DNA of 64,000 nucleotides, from NCBI RefSeq assembly GCF_002443295.1, contig NZ_BAOS01000028.1, positions 310,001-374,000 on the forward strand, read 5' to 3'. The DNA is from Candidatus Scalindua japonica. Lineage in GTDB: Bacteria; Planctomycetota; Brocadiia; Brocadiales; Scalinduaceae. The position numbers were made by a program, and so were the translations under genes. Under the pieces are notes generated by a model. It saw nothing but the letters and a program-made list of their open reading frames with translations. It was not told where the DNA came from and ran no database searches. Positions within the stretch are counted from its first letter, which is position 1. Each line of letters begins with the position of its first letter. Of this stretch, positions 5,876 to 17,707 are shown piece after piece.

Positions 5876-6835
5876 TTAAATATAATTATGAGATTTTTTA
5901 AATAATTTTCTTTCCAGCATCCTGTTGTAATTAGTCCAATTATCATTGGGATCCTTATCATTTAAAATTGCCTTGTTAAAAGCGTGTATTTTTGCGTCTA
6001 TATTGTCCAGGTAATGGAGTGCAAGGGCCTCTAATGTCATCGGAAGTTTTGGCGAGCCCCATTCGTATTCTCCGTGGTGACTCAAGATCAAATGCCTTAA
6101 TAGATCTAACAAAGTTTTGGGAAAACCGTCTATCTGCTTCGCTCTCTCTTCGACCATGAGTACGCCTGATATCAGGTGTCCTATGAGTTGGCCTTCGTCT
6201 GAATAATGAAAGTTTCTTTCATAACAGAGTTCACTGATCTTGCCTATGTCGTGAAGTATTATCCCGCAGATTAACAAATCTCTGTTTAAACCGGGATATA
6301 GTGGAGCGATAATATCTCCCAACTTTGCAACCGATAAAGTATGCTCTAGTAAACCACCAAGGAAAGCGTGGTGGTATTGTACTGCTGCCGGCGCTGAGCA
6401 GAAACGCTTGCAAAAGTCCTTGTCGCTAAAGAAAAGAGCGAGAAGGTCTTTTAAATGAGGCTGTTTGATTGAGCTGACAATTTGTTTTAACTCAGAAAAC
6501 ATTTTGTTTACATCCTGTTCTGTACTTGGTAGATAATCTTCAAGTTGTATATCTTCCTGGCTGGTCTTTAAAATCTGTTTTATGATTAACTGAATTTTAT
6601 TCTGGTAGATCTCTGTTCTGCCCTTAATTCTTAAGAATGTGTCATCACCAAGAGATTCAAAAAATGGTGTGCTTGCGTCCCACATCCTCGCATCAATCGT
6701 TCCTGTACGATCAGATAACTGGGCCTGGATATATAAGCTACCGTTCTTTGTGGTCCTTAAATCTTTGTTCTGAACTAAAAAGATATCGTCAATTGTAGTC
6801 CCGCCATTAAGTTGTGAAATAAACTTTCTTATCAT
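5876..6835 (-). CDS. YhaM-like 3'-5' exoribonuclease (OB fold plus HD domain)
   Basis: The protein has an N-terminal OB-fold nucleic-acid-binding domain (VQNKDLRTTKNGSLYIQAQL, RTGTIDARMWD; first ~95 residues) and an HD metal-dependent phosphohydrolase domain (LLEHTLSVAKL and HDIGK, plus later His residues in LILSHHGEYEWG). This combination is that of YhaM, a 3'-5' exonuclease acting on RNA and single-stranded DNA. The start is placed at ATG 6835, with GGAG six bases upstream and the typical MIRKFISQL N-terminus; the longer frame to 6934 adds 33 residues without homology or ribosome site. The length, 319 residues, agrees with the family. It lies immediately downstream of the YlbF relic in convergent orientation. 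Confidence 0.85.
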   Translation of the reverse strand: MIRKFISQLNGGTTIDDIFLVQNKDLRTTKNGSLYIQAQLSDRTGTIDARMWDASTPFFESLGDDTFLRIKGRTEIYQNKIQLIIKQILKTSQEDIQLEDYLPSTEQDVNKMFSELKQIVSSIKQPHLKDLLALFFSDKDFCKRFCSAPAAVQYHHAFLGGLLEHTLSVAKLGDIIAPLYPGLNRDLLICGIILHDIGKISELCYERNFHYSDEGQLIGHLISGVLMVEERAKQIDGFPKTLLDLLRHLILSHHGEYEWGSPKLPMTLEALALHYLDNIDAKIHAFNKAILNDKDPNDNWTNYNRMLERKLFKKSHNYI

Positions 6836-11132: not shown

Positions 11133-11157
11133 TGGTGAGAGGTGGGTAAGAGTGGGG
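11133..11157 (+). promoter_or_regulatory. Three MraZ boxes (TGGNN repeats at 10-bp period)
   Basis: TGGTG (11133-11137), TGGGT (11143-11147) and TGGGG (11153-11157) lie exactly ten bases apart, matching the known MraZ operator of TGGGN direct repeats separated by five bases. The first box deviates at its fourth base. The boxes sit between the promoter and the mraZ start, so MraZ most likely represses its own cluster; the last box overlaps the ribosome-binding region. Confidence 0.8.
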
Positions 11158-11166
11158 AATTAATAA

Positions 11167-12959: not shown

Positions 12960-14714
12960 ATGCAAAAATCAGAAACGATTCCAAAGAGTTTTAAAATAAG
13001 GGCAAATATCTTGTGTATCTGTATATTTGTAATTTTTGCAGCCCTTCTCTATCAACTGATTCGTATACAGCTTTTTGATCATAAAAAATATTCTACTTTA
13101 GCGTTTTCACAGCAATTTAAAAAACAGGGTATTCCTACAAGAAGGGGGAATGTTTTTGACAGAAGAGGAAAGCCTCTGGCAAAATCAATTCAAGTAAGCT
13201 CTGTTTTTGCGGATCCTTTGTCGATAGAGGATACAGGTAAAACTGCTAAGGTTTTATCAAATGTGTTGGGCCTCAAGAAGGCAGATGTTGTTAATTTGTT
13301 AAACAAGAAGAAAAGGTTTGTCTGGATAAAAAGAAGAATATCGGATGAACAGGCGGATGTGGTAAGTCAGTTTAATCTTAAAGGTATTGGCTTAAGGCAA
13401 GAACACAAAAGGGTCTATCCATATGAAACACTCTGTTCTCAGGTCTTAGGTTTTACCGATGTAGATGAAAATGGAATTGAAGGTATAGAAAAATCCCTTA
13501 ATCATATTTTTTCCGGAAGTAAAGGTTCAAAGGTAGTAGAAAAAGATGGTTTCCAGCATCAATTTGCCACTTTAAAGGAAAAAACGGTCTCCGCAAAATA
13601 TGGAAATAGTGTCTATCTAACTATTGATTGTGAGGTTCAGAAAATAGTTGAGGAGGAGCTTGAGAAAGCATGTCAACAGTGGAACCCGAACTCCGCTATT
13701 GCTATTGCAATGGACCCTTCTACAGGAGAGGTGTTAGCAATGGCTAATTACCCTACATTTGATCCAAATTTTGTTTGTGATTCAAAAGCGGAAGAGAGGC
13801 GTAACAGGGCAATAACTGATTGCTTTGAACCGGGCTCATTGATTAAACCCTTAATTGTAAGTGCCGCACTGGATAGTGGTCTGGTGAAAGAGGATGAAAT
13901 ACTTTTCTGTTATAACGGTGCATATCCAGTAAATGGTGGAAGGAGAGTAATTAGAGACTCTCATTCTTACGGTAATTTAAGTGTAGCTGAGATCATAGTT
14001 CATTCGAGCAATATAGGGATGGCACAATTAGGGCAGAGAATAAAGAAGGATAAATTACATAGATATTTGGATGATTTTGCTTTTGGTAAAAAAACAGGAA
14101 TATCATTACCAGGTGAAGCCAAAGGTATTGTGTGGCCGGTTAAACGATGGTCAGTTGATTCAGAAATGTCTATTTCCTACGGGTATGAGACAACCGTAAC
14201 TCCAATACAGATGGTGACCGCCTTCTGTTCCATTGCTAATGGTGGAACGTTATTGAAACCGCGAATAATCAGTAAGATAACTGACTATTCAGGTAAAAGG
14301 GTGAAAAAAAAATATGATACTCCTCGACGAATCAGGAGAGTAATCTCTCCGGAGATTGCGAGGAAAGTAATGTCTCCAATCCTTGAGGATGTTGTAAATG
14401 AAGGTACCGGTAAAAAAGCAAATCTTTCTATGTATAGGGTCGCCGGTAAGACAGGAACGGCTCAGAAATTAATAATGGTTGGTGATGAAATGGAATATTC
14501 TAAAAAACACCACATTGGTTCATTTGTAGGGTTTGCGCCTGCGGAGGAACCAAAAATCTGTGTTTTGGTGTCATTAAATGAACCCAAAAAGAAAGATGAT
14601 AAATATATATACTATGGTGGTTCTGTAGCCGCGCCTGCAGTAAGTAAAATTATAGAAAAAACTCTTAATTATATGGAATTTGGTCCGCAATATGTGCAGT
14701 TAGCTCAAAAATAA
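12960..14714 (+). CDS. ftsI: Peptidoglycan transpeptidase FtsI (class B penicillin-binding protein)
   Basis: FtsI crosslinks septal peptidoglycan. Residues ~17-36 form a membrane anchor; the pedimer domain begins at IPTRRGNVFDRRGKPLA. The penicillin-binding domain has all three motifs: S-X-X-K as SLIK (Ser293, Lys296), S-X-N as SSN (349-351) and KTG (497-499). At 584 residues it is the usual FtsI/SpoVD size and lacks a C-terminal PASTA pair. It follows the FtsL-like gene and is followed by a strong terminator hairpin, so it is the last gene of the first transcription segment. Confidence 0.95.
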   Translation: MQKSETIPKSFKIRANILCICIFVIFAALLYQLIRIQLFDHKKYSTLAFSQQFKKQGIPTRRGNVFDRRGKPLAKSIQVSSVFADPLSIEDTGKTAKVLSNVLGLKKADVVNLLNKKKRFVWIKRRISDEQADVVSQFNLKGIGLRQEHKRVYPYETLCSQVLGFTDVDENGIEGIEKSLNHIFSGSKGSKVVEKDGFQHQFATLKEKTVSAKYGNSVYLTIDCEVQKIVEEELEKACQQWNPNSAIAIAMDPSTGEVLAMANYPTFDPNFVCDSKAEERRNRAITDCFEPGSLIKPLIVSAALDSGLVKEDEILFCYNGAYPVNGGRRVIRDSHSYGNLSVAEIIVHSSNIGMAQLGQRIKKDKLHRYLDDFAFGKKTGISLPGEAKGIVWPVKRWSVDSEMSISYGYETTVTPIQMVTAFCSIANGGTLLKPRIISKITDYSGKRVKKKYDTPRRIRRVISPEIARKVMSPILEDVVNEGTGKKANLSMYRVAGKTGTAQKLIMVGDEMEYSKKHHIGSFVGFAPAEEPKICVLVSLNEPKKKDDKYIYYGGSVAAPAVSKIIEKTLNYMEFGPQYVQLAQK

Positions 14715-14754
14715 TTTTAGTGGGGAGTAACCTTATTACGAAGGGAGGTGGTAT

Positions 14755-14778
14755 ATGGTCAAAAATGCTGGAAGGTAG
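14755..14778 (+). CDS. Possible 7-codon leader peptide
   Basis: A very strong ribosome site (AAGGGAGGTG, 14741-14750) stands four bases before an ATG that opens Met-Val-Lys-Asn-Ala-Gly-Arg-stop. It is followed immediately by two hairpins, the second a terminator. Such an arrangement resembles a translated leader that controls read-through; the codons do not contain an obvious run of one amino acid. It could also be a relic of a larger gene whose ribosome site survives. Confidence 0.4.
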   Translation: MVKNAGR

Positions 14779-14779
14779 G

Positions 14780-14798
14780 TACATCAGTGGGTGATGTA
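14780..14798 (+). promoter_or_regulatory. Small hairpin in the ftsI-murE leader
   Basis: TACATCA (14780-14786) pairs with TGATGTA (14792-14798) around a GTGGG loop. It lies directly after the mini-ORF stop codon and just before the terminator hairpin, where a translating ribosome could cover or expose it. Confidence 0.5.
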
Positions 14799-14800
14799 TT

Positions 14801-14850
14801 GATACCCTATGCTGCTCCAATTTTTTGGGGACAGTATAGGGTATCGTTTT
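14801..14850 (+). terminator. Strong Rho-independent terminator between ftsI and murE
   Basis: GATACCCTAT (14801-14810) pairs perfectly with ATAGGGTATC (14836-14845). The stem continues inward four more pairs including one G-U (GCTG with CAGT) and then loosely by TCC/GGG. The hairpin is followed by GTTTTTAATTTTTA, a T-rich tail. It would end the mraZ-rsmH-ftsL-ftsI transcript, or act as an attenuator for the downstream mur genes. Confidence 0.8.
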
Positions 14851-14885
14851 TAATTTTTATACTATTATTTTAAAAGGAGAATCCC

Positions 14886-15116
14886 ATGACAACTAAAGAA
14901 TTAGAGAAACGTAATTTTCTCACTTGGTATAAATATTCTGATAAAAAAGAGTTGGGAAATTCAAAAGAGAAAAACCATGAAGTATGGGAAAGATTGTATA
15001 GTGAATGTTCAAATGAAATAGAAGTGATAAACAGAACAAAACAGATGTATGAATCCGTCTCACAACATGAATTAGGTATACAGAAATTTGATCTCTCTTT
15101 AAAAATTTCAATATAG
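14886..15116 (+). CDS. Hypothetical 76-residue acidic/charged protein in the dcw cluster
   Basis: The ATG is preceded by AAAAGGAG at ideal spacing, so translation is credible. The product (MTTKELEKRNFLTWYKYSD, then a long charged helix with EVWERLYSECSNEIEVINRTK) has no signal peptide or membrane segment and no family I recognise. It lies between ftsI and murE, 16 bases before murE, just behind the leader/terminator. A helical cytoplasmic protein translated with the wall-synthesis enzymes is all that can be inferred. Confidence 0.65.
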   Translation: MTTKELEKRNFLTWYKYSDKKELGNSKEKNHEVWERLYSECSNEIEVINRTKQMYESVSQHELGIQKFDLSLKISI

Positions 15117-15132
15117 TAACTATGGTTTTTTA

Positions 15133-16605
15133 ATGAAATTAAGTACGTTGGTTCACCATTTGAACTCTGTGGAAACATACAACTTTTGTAATACAGATAT
15201 TACAGGCATTGCCAATGATTCCAGAAAAATAAGGCCTGGTTATCTCTATGTCGCAATTAAGGGATATAAGACGGACGGGCATAATTTCATTAAAGAATCT
15301 ATTGAATGCGGCGCGCAGGCAATCGTTAGTGAGGAAGTCTTTCCTCTTAATGCAAAGATTCCTCATATAATTGTACGTAACGCTAGAAAAGCGCTCTCCT
15401 CTTTGAGTTGTTGTTTCTATAACAACCCATCTCAAAAAATTAATGTTGTTGGTGTAACGGGAACAAATGGTAAAACTACTACTACATTTCTAACAAAATC
15501 TATAATTGAAAAAGCAGGATACGAGACAGGATTAATCGGTACTATTAATTATCAAATAGGAAGAAATGTAGTACCTGCGCAGGAGACAACTCCTGAATCA
15601 GTTGAGCTACAAAGGCTCATCGCGGAAATGGCAGCAGCAAAGATGAGATTTGCAGTCATGGAAGTATCTTCCCACTCTGCTATGCAGTATAGAATTGAGA
15701 ATGTTAATTTTAAAACTGCTGTTTTTACCAATATAAGTGCAGAACACATGGATTATCATAAAACAATCTCAAATTATTTAAATGCCAAGGTAGAGTTGTT
15801 TAAGAATTTAAAAAAAGACTCTTTTGCTGTACTAAATGCAGATGACAAGTATAGTGAATATTTTGCCGATAGAACAAGAGCTAAAATCTTATGGTATGGA
15901 ATTAAGAATAATGCTGACATTAAAGCGGATATAGGTAAAGAATCTACAAGTAATATTATGATTATGTTAAATTATGCGGGAAGAGAAATGGATGTGAAAA
16001 TACCCTTTGTGGGTTTACACAATGTTTACAATGTACTTGCCTCGGCTGCAAGTGCAGTTTCTCTTGGATTTGAACTTGATGCCATAAAATCCGGTATCGA
16101 AACCGCCCCTGTTATCCCAGGGAGGTTAGAGAACGTACCTTGTGACCTTGGTTTCAGGGTTGTTGTTGACTATGCCCATACTCCTCATGCTCTGGAAACA
16201 GTACTGCACGCATTAAGGAATCTGGTAAAAGGTAGAGTGCTTCTTGTTTTTGGTTGTGGAGGTGATAGGGATAAAGAAAAACGTCCGGAGATGGGAAGAA
16301 TAGCTGATGAAAACTCTGATATTTTCTGGATCACAAATGATAACCCTCGTTCAGAGGACCCTGTAAATATTATAGATGATATCACTGTGGGAATAAAGTC
16401 AGGCCGAGCGTTACATATTCAAACAGATAGATATAAAGCAATAGAAGAAGCTCTTTCTGAGGCAAAAGATGATGATCTGCTGCTTATTGCCGGAAAGGGA
16501 CATGAAAAATATCAAATAATCAAAGATACCATAATCCCTTTCGATGACAGAGTGGTGGCGATGAAGATACTTTCTGAGAAATCTGATAAAAAGAGTTGTA
16601 AATAA
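15133..16605 (+). CDS. murE: UDP-MurNAc-tripeptide synthetase MurE (meso-DAP adding)
   Basis: MurE adds the third residue to UDP-MurNAc-Ala-Glu. The Mur ligase domains are clear: substrate domain (GIANDSRKIRPGYLYVAIKG), ATP site GVTGTNGKTTTT at about residue 110, central domain with the carbamylated-Lys region, and the C-terminal VDYAHTPHALE and DNPRSEDP. The DNPR motif is the known marker for meso-diaminopimelate specificity. The length of 490 residues is normal. It is the first wall-precursor enzyme after the terminator. Confidence 0.96.
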   Translation: MKLSTLVHHLNSVETYNFCNTDITGIANDSRKIRPGYLYVAIKGYKTDGHNFIKESIECGAQAIVSEEVFPLNAKIPHIIVRNARKALSSLSCCFYNNPSQKINVVGVTGTNGKTTTTFLTKSIIEKAGYETGLIGTINYQIGRNVVPAQETTPESVELQRLIAEMAAAKMRFAVMEVSSHSAMQYRIENVNFKTAVFTNISAEHMDYHKTISNYLNAKVELFKNLKKDSFAVLNADDKYSEYFADRTRAKILWYGIKNNADIKADIGKESTSNIMIMLNYAGREMDVKIPFVGLHNVYNVLASAASAVSLGFELDAIKSGIETAPVIPGRLENVPCDLGFRVVVDYAHTPHALETVLHALRNLVKGRVLLVFGCGGDRDKEKRPEMGRIADENSDIFWITNDNPRSEDPVNIIDDITVGIKSGRALHIQTDRYKAIEEALSEAKDDDLLLIAGKGHEKYQIIKDTIIPFDDRVVAMKILSEKSDKKSCK

Positions 16606-16666: not shown

Positions 16667-17707
16667 ATGATGACAAAAAGGCTGAAGATAATTACTATTC
16701 TAAATTGCATCTACATAATGCTGAGTTTGTTTTATCCATCATTGACGTTTGGTAATGACCGACCAGGCCAATCATCACCTCTGCCAACTCTTTCTGAGGA
16801 GCCTGAACGAGCAGGTAGGAATATTTTGCCTGGAATACCGGATACAACGGAATATTTCTGTTCAGATACATTTTCAAAACCTGCGTATAAACCAGTACCT
16901 GATGAGTATCCATATCCTGATAATAATGGTAACTTACTTGACAACTTCATGTATAAGGATTGGTGTGAAAAAACGTTTGACAATGGAAAAGATATATATG
17001 AAGCATACAAGGATATAGCTTTCAATATAAAATATACTCCGGAACAGGTAAAGACTGATATCTGGCAGACTCCATGCGAAACCGGTAACTCAAAAAAAGG
17101 TGATTGTGAGGATGCCGTATTTCTTTTTTTATCACATTTTTCCTCAATACATAATAACGCCAGAGTTCAATGGGGGTGGGTAATCGACAAAGGCAGTAGG
17201 TTTGGGAGGGCACATGTATGGTCTGAACTCACTGGTAAAGCGGGGCGGCAATATATTGTAGAAGGTTTCTCTAAAGGCTGGGATGGAATAATACCGTTGG
17301 AAATAGTTGAACAAACCGAATTTAGAAAAACAATATTTACAATTACACACTCAGAGTTCTGTAGATTGTCCCGTCTGGTTTCCAAACCTGATAGTTGGCA
17401 GGCATACCAATCTATAATAGATTTATGTACGTCAGCTAATTTTATAGAATCTTATTCCAGAAATTTAAATATTTCGCAAGTCATGGATTCGTGCTTAAAT
17501 CCGGATTATGGGTTAATTGAATACCTTCTGGATATACAAATAAAGTCATATAAAGATACGATTTCCAATAGATATTCAACCAGACCCAACGTGTCACCCG
17601 CTAAAGAAAAAGAAATATCTAACATTTTCAGAAAACTTCACGAGCTTTTTCTAAGATGTCAAAAACAAAAGGAAGAATTTGACCCAAACTTGCAAACTAC
17701 CTGGTAG
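16667..17707 (+). CDS. Exported transglutaminase-like cysteine protein
   Basis: An N-terminal signal sequence (hydrophobic core IITILNCIYIMLSLFYPSLTF, likely cut near residue 29) is followed by a Pro/Tyr-rich linker and a transglutaminase-like core. The Cys of KKGDCEDAVFLFLSHF (Cys147), the His of RAHVWSEL (His183) and an acidic residue in VEGFSKGWDG (Glu199 or Asp206) match the Cys-His-Asp order of that fold. Bacterial members are usually proteases or amidases rather than crosslinkers. It sits between murE and murF, 61 bases after murE, so a periplasmic wall-related role is suggested, but its substrate is unknown. Confidence 0.65.
   Translation: MMTKRLKIITILNCIYIMLSLFYPSLTFGNDRPGQSSPLPTLSEEPERAGRNILPGIPDTTEYFCSDTFSKPAYKPVPDEYPYPDNNGNLLDNFMYKDWCEKTFDNGKDIYEAYKDIAFNIKYTPEQVKTDIWQTPCETGNSKKGDCEDAVFLFLSHFSSIHNNARVQWGWVIDKGSRFGRAHVWSELTGKAGRQYIVEGFSKGWDGIIPLEIVEQTEFRKTIFTITHSEFCRLSRLVSKPDSWQAYQSIIDLCTSANFIESYSRNLNISQVMDSCLNPDYGLIEYLLDIQIKSYKDTISNRYSTRPNVSPAKEKEISNIFRKLHELFLRCQKQKEEFDPNLQTTW

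Follow-up and report, generated by a model that had tools for sequence, protein, structure and literature searches.

Why would an extended Shine-Dalgarno (SD) sequence be conserved behind a stop codon, with no normal gene to serve? This general question is raised by an element of about 100 nt (positions 14741-14845, plus strand) in the 64,000-nucleotide stretch of Candidatus Scalindua japonica DNA that we analysed, hereafter the window. The element lies 3' of ftsI and consists of an extended SD, an AUG, a seven-codon frame and two hairpins, P1 and P2. The initial annotation of the window had read it as a possible translation-coupled attenuator between ftsI and the murE segment, in which an unusually strong ribosome site, a short frame, a 7-bp hairpin directly after its stop codon and a strong terminator with a 14-bp stem and a T tail together form a gate on the mur genes.

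Position and distribution of the element

The 5' neighbour of the element, ftsI (12960-14714, plus strand), encodes a penicillin-binding protein with transpeptidase function (Pfam Transpeptidase, 3.7e-73; PBP_dimer, 2.3e-16). As annotated, the element lies inside the dcw cluster, and its position there is fixed; the gene that follows, however, is not murE. A 76-aa ORF (14886-15116, plus strand) with no Pfam or NCBIfam match is the next gene in all 17 Scalinduaceae genomes, and murE, the first mur gene 3' of the element, starts only at 15133 (15133-16605, plus strand; NF001126, 2.8e-176). The order ftsI, leader, small ORF, murE recurs in every member of the family, with ftsI of G002 falling beyond the end of its contig. 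In the 3' end of ftsI, just 5' of the element, conservation drops to the coding background and no conserved promoter-like block was seen, which suggests that the genes downstream of the element probably depend on read-through.

In a DNA search, each of the 17 Scalinduaceae genomes returned the leader, with 84-95% identity over its 102 nt, as a single copy per genome and always at this site. Sixteen full copies were analysed, the seventeenth (G002) being cut by the contig end, and the SD, the AUG, P1 and P2 are present in every one of the 16, so that the stems and the start of the short frame proposed in the initial annotation are conserved features. A covariance model detected no second copy in the 17 Scalinduaceae genomes; it found nothing in 45 further genomes of the order, and over 392 genomes of the phylum it matched only the Scalinduaceae copies. 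A repeat or mobile element was considered and rejected, the genome holding a single copy and no paralogue. The remark that no attenuator had been described at this point agrees with our searches of Rfam, which at gathering and permissive thresholds gave no match to the leader and only chance matches far under threshold; likewise, a search of the available literature turned up no anammox study of an element like this one. We conclude that the element is real, conserved and undescribed in Rfam, and its recurrence among these genomes marks it as far more than chance.

Several other features of the cluster may be recorded in their own right. Between murE and murF lies a gene for a 346-aa protein (16667-17707) with a weak transglutaminase-like match just under the Pfam cut-off. 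Just before mraZ, at 11140-11160, the sequence GTGGGT-AAGA-GTGGGG holds two GTGGG repeats at 10 bp spacing, which resemble MraZ binding boxes. In G015, ftsI (L061, G015:C1:377116-378830) is found in two overlapping frame pieces, 377116-378234 and 378219-378830, reflecting either a frameshift or an assembly error.

Ribosome site, short frame and core

The extended SD (AAGGGAGGTGGT, 14741-14752, plus strand) is predicted to form a duplex of -18.3 kcal/mol with the 3' end of 16S rRNA. This site is indeed unusually strong, the strongest in the window: it exceeds the best SD of the 49 window ORFs of at least 150 aa (best -13.9, median -5.3 kcal/mol), and its strength is reached at 0.02% of background positions. 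Across all 16 full-length Scalinduaceae copies the predicted duplex ranges from -16.9 to -21.3 kcal/mol. The mini-ORF that follows, ATG GTC AAA AAT GCT GGA AGG TAG (MVKNAGR*, 14755-14778, plus strand), is the seven-codon frame Met-Val-Lys-Asn-Ala-Gly-Arg noted initially. SD and AUG are found in 16/16 copies, each with an in-frame stop within 3-8 codons. SD and AUG are invariant while the two to three bases separating them vary, the pattern that true initiation would give, and on this comparison initiation at the mini-ORF appears to be conserved.

The leader peptide of the mini-ORF, judged from its codons, does not appear to be conserved. The frame is intact in 14 of the 16 copies, and in two separate genomes, G001 and G011, codon 3 is TAA, leaving Met-Val-stop. 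Codon 2 occurs as GTC, GTA, GTT or ACC, codon 3 as AAA, GAA, CAA or TAA, and the stop codon TAG is replaced by TAA in G013. No control codons and no repeated codon were found in the mini-ORF in the 16 copies. A leader peptide in the sense implied by the initial annotation is difficult to reconcile with MV* in G001 and G011 and with the changes in codons 2 and 3 of other genomes. A second, overlapping frame (MLEGRYISG*, 14765-14794, plus strand) is open in all copies; we rejected it as a real peptide, as it has no well-spaced SD and its openness is probably explained by nucleotide conservation.

From within the mini-ORF to just past P1 runs a near-invariant core (AATGCTGGAAGGTAGGTACATCAGTGGGTGATGTATTG, 14764-14800, plus strand). 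These 37 nt are about 99% identical (mean pairwise identity 0.98-0.99 over 14767-14796), compared with a mean pairwise identity of about 0.75 in flanking coding DNA; the 4-fold sites of ftsI are 31-61% identical to the window, and the spacer just 3' of P2 has a mean pairwise identity of 0.50. Identity this high, set against the flanks and the ftsI 4-fold sites, reflects strong purifying selection on a non-coding stretch. Hairpin P1 (TACATCA-GTGGG-TGATGTA, 14780-14798, plus strand) is the 7-bp hairpin that had been noted after the stop: it begins one base past the UAG, and its seven Watson-Crick pairs close an invariant 5-nt loop, GTGGG. No core pair of P1 is broken in 16 sequences, the only changes are one-sided (C-G to U-G, U-A to U-G), and no double compensatory change occurs among them; covariation in P1 is limited because the core is near-invariant. 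A small UGCU/GGUA helix shows no variation across copies. Sequence changes appear to back P1 and this helix less than P2, or not at all.

Hairpin P2 and candidate mechanisms

P2 (14801-14845, plus strand) comprises 14 outer pairs, one bulge (A, 14831), six inner pairs and a TTTT loop. The 14-bp stem of the initial annotation is present, though it extends six pairs past the bulge, to 20 in total, and the T tail starts only after one G. The fold has a predicted energy of -32.4 kcal/mol (z = -8.7 against shuffles, with z = -5.7 for the whole leader), and RNAalifold recovers both P1 and P2 without guidance. Over the 20 pairs, 99.4% of cells are paired and three pairs are changed on both sides, and on the model alignment the paired share of cells is 99.2%, falling to 33-48% when partners are slid by 1-3 columns. 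These pair counts lean towards the fold, the alignment having been fitted to the structure, but the changes in P2 can also be seen in the unaligned sequences themselves. The changes on both sides occur in G007, G015 and G016, other P2 changes pass via G-U, and in G013 the bulge has shifted to the opposite arm with pairing maintained. The comparison of relatives for compensatory changes that the initial annotation had suggested thus finds P2 changes that preserve pairing. Since P2 uses G-U pairs, it functions as RNA, read along the operon strand, and this pattern of substitution shows that P2 folds as RNA on that strand.

One G past P2 lies a tail (TTTTTAATTTTT, 14847-14858, plus strand) that is T-rich only in the window's genus and G014. 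The first ten bases after P2 hold seven T in the window, five to six in the other members of the genus and G014, and two to three in the deep relatives G013, G015 and G016. A stable hairpin with a U tract directly behind it is present in the window; across most of the genus this feature is weak, and those three genomes lack it. Of the strong terminator of the initial annotation, the layout is seen in the window, where a strong hairpin precedes a T-rich tail, but the tail is not conserved. Terminator usage was sampled over 464 kb of this genome and in two relatives, genes being called crudely. Within the 464 kb, convergent gene ends carried strong hairpins no more often (8 of 72) than coding controls did (74 of 744), and one of those eight ends had at least five T in eight. 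With the T tail lost in three genomes and hairpins not enriched at gene ends, P2 seems therefore to be kept for a purpose other than, or in addition to, intrinsic termination; within the genus of the window, P2 and the T-rich tail could together double as a leaky terminator.

We consider the element very probably a cis-acting regulatory RNA, and probably one that sets the amount of wall-gene message. Our best explanation, to which we assign a probability of about one half, is a ribosome-linked cis-acting RNA at a transcription-unit junction in the Scalinduaceae dcw operon, with P2 as its output into the mur genes. Ribosomes would load onto read-through ftsI mRNA at the extended SD, as the presence of SD and AUG suggests, initiate at the AUG and terminate 2-7 codons further on. 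The invariant core, together with P1, may then sense ribosome occupancy or a bound factor. P2 would serve as the output, acting either as a partial stop or as a processing and stabilising hairpin, and would adjust the share of message that passes into the small ORF, murE and later mur genes. Several points tell against this explanation. By general ribosome geometry, a ribosome terminating on a two-codon mini-ORF would stand clear of P1. The two hairpins can form side by side and no strong competing fold is kept, so that a switch would be hypothetical, and P1 has no double compensatory change. Of the gate on the mur genes proposed initially, the conserved translation-linked element is retained, and the classical attenuator is one candidate among several.

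Such an attenuator would have a ribosome on the mini-ORF melt P1, so that GGGUG (14789-14793) could base-pair with UACCC (14803-14807), blocking the base of the terminator P2; without a ribosome, P1 would form, P2 would fold fully and transcription would stop. The four-segment layout for this is present, with TTTTT one base past the strong P2 stem in the window, and a ribosome at the UAG would presumably end near 14788, just 5' of GGGUG. The element also resembles trp-type attenuators in its short frame with a strong SD, its two successive hairpins, the T residues after the second (in the window) and its place 5' of a biosynthetic block. It differs from them in standing mid-operon, in the unconserved peptide and frame length, reduced to MV* in G001 and G011, in the absence of control codons and of a strong competing fold, and in the loss of the T tail in related genera, including G013, G015 and G016; hairpins with T tracts are, moreover, rare at convergent gene ends of the genome. 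The GGGUG:UACCC pairing is possible in 16/16 copies and is the sole conserved competitor; its predicted energy is about -4.7 kcal/mol, that of P2 -32.4 kcal/mol. As transcription proceeds, this pairing could hold back formation of the base of P2, though it is thermodynamically minor. The comparison gives no support for a conserved competing antiterminator of useful strength. We regard this reading as doubtful. An intercistronic processing or stability element, which we hold possible if on the unlikely side, would dispense with regulation by ribosome stalling: 30S subunits on the extended SD, together with the long duplex of P2, would fix the cut site of the ftsI-mur transcript, protect the fragments and separate the decay of ftsI and mur mRNAs. 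It would accommodate the conservation of P2 even without the T tail, and in the sister family described below an orphan extended SD is kept although no well-spaced AUG follows, much like the STAB-SD of Bacillus thuringiensis cry3A, a 30S-binding site that does not direct initiation (PMC4113751). The SD of our element and STAB-SD are alike in being extended, complementary to the 16S 3' end and not the start of a normal gene. In Scalinduaceae, by contrast, an invariant AUG and hairpins follow the SD, and this explanation accounts for neither the AUG nor the 37-nt core. STAB-SD acts, moreover, against the 5' exonuclease RNase J1, whereas this genome gave no RNase J above the family cut-off, its matches to TIGR00649 being weak and partial.

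Three further explanations were weighed. The invariance of unpaired positions (GCUGGAAGGU and the loop GUGGG) goes beyond the needs of pairing or of a short peptide, as might be expected of an aptamer core for a small molecule or protein, a riboswitch or autoregulatory site that senses, for example, wall precursors, with the mini-ORF incidental. This is unlikely in our estimation: a single locus in a single family is unlike most riboswitches, Rfam offers no match, and the model has no need of an exceptional SD followed by an AUG. A small RNA acting in trans, transcribed from a promoter of its own and ending at P2, would fit the compact, highly conserved form and the strong terminal hairpin, yet upstream conservation is at coding background with no promoter-like block, and such an RNA would have no need of the strict synteny seen with murE and the small ORF; we think this very improbable. 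Least credible is a feature of the DNA itself, whether operator palindrome, promoter or mobile-element remnant. Although the arms of P2 form an inverted repeat in the DNA as well, many of the substitutions in P2 retain G-U pairs, and these count as matches in RNA alone. The loop also differs in length and the bulge in side, and the genome has one copy; a DNA operator in particular was rejected on the G-U pairs and the variable loop length.

Two described systems invite comparison with the element. The regulatory upstream ORF toiL of Escherichia coli topAI exposes a downstream ribosome-binding site (PMC12121999), and like our element it places a short ORF before regulated genes and would tie RNA structure to occupancy by ribosomes; this genome also encodes Rho. 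Unlike toiL, the leader has no conserved pairing over the SD of the small ORF, and its mini-ORF is not at the operon 5' end. The mraW RNA motif (RF01746, listed in PMC2864571) of Actinomycetales is a candidate cis-regulatory RNA named for a dcw-cluster gene, but it belongs to other bacteria, and the leader is without an Rfam match.

The ftsI/mur junction in related families

In the 32 genomes read from a sister family, f5, probably Brocadiaceae, the spacer between ftsI and the small ORF is without P1 and P2. An orphan extended SD of -12 kcal/mol or lower is nevertheless present there in 23 of the 32, with 15 of the 32 at or below the 1% level of the control (-16.7 kcal/mol), and no well-spaced AUG follows it. 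Downstream of the orphan SD, for example in L171 and L173, is a conserved promoter-like block, TTGAAA-N16-TGTGATAAAGT. With an orphan SD and a promoter-like block at the same place, the spot has the appearance, across the order, of a regulatory junction that separates expression of ftsI from that of mur. Outside the SD, homology of the f1 leader with that of f5 (ATGG-TTGAAAATGC) is no more than suggestive: 2 of 200 shuffles scored equally well, and most single pairs are not significant.

A recurrent SD-minigene family of the form GGAGGTG...ATGGCTTGA was considered and set aside, with only the f5 dcw copies and two isolated matches found. Two isolated strong SDs followed by a minigene ATG GCT TGA were observed, L175 (G000:C13:74267) and L174 (G015:C1:202489-202511). 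The 76-aa ORF is a member of a small protein family with dcw copies in Scalinduaceae and f5 (and, by eye, f4). Its paralogues (L176:2700-2939 and 6331-6540; L177:2257-2496, minus strand) lie between flagellin-like, fliD-like and fliS-like genes in the window's genome and adjoin gas-vesicle-like genes in G034, the neighbours being named by eye from their translations.

More tentatively, the element may represent a new, Scalinduaceae-specific class of structured RNA in which an extended SD feeds a frame of 2-7 codons and gates transcription or mRNA processing from division into peptidoglycan-precursor genes, derived from an older orphan-SD junction that the sister anammox family has kept. Control of the dcw cluster in planctomycetes is hardly known, their division and wall synthesis are unusual, and genetic tools for them are few. 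A hyperconserved RNA at the ftsI/mur boundary offers a concrete and testable point of control between septum synthesis and the supply of wall precursors in anammox bacteria.
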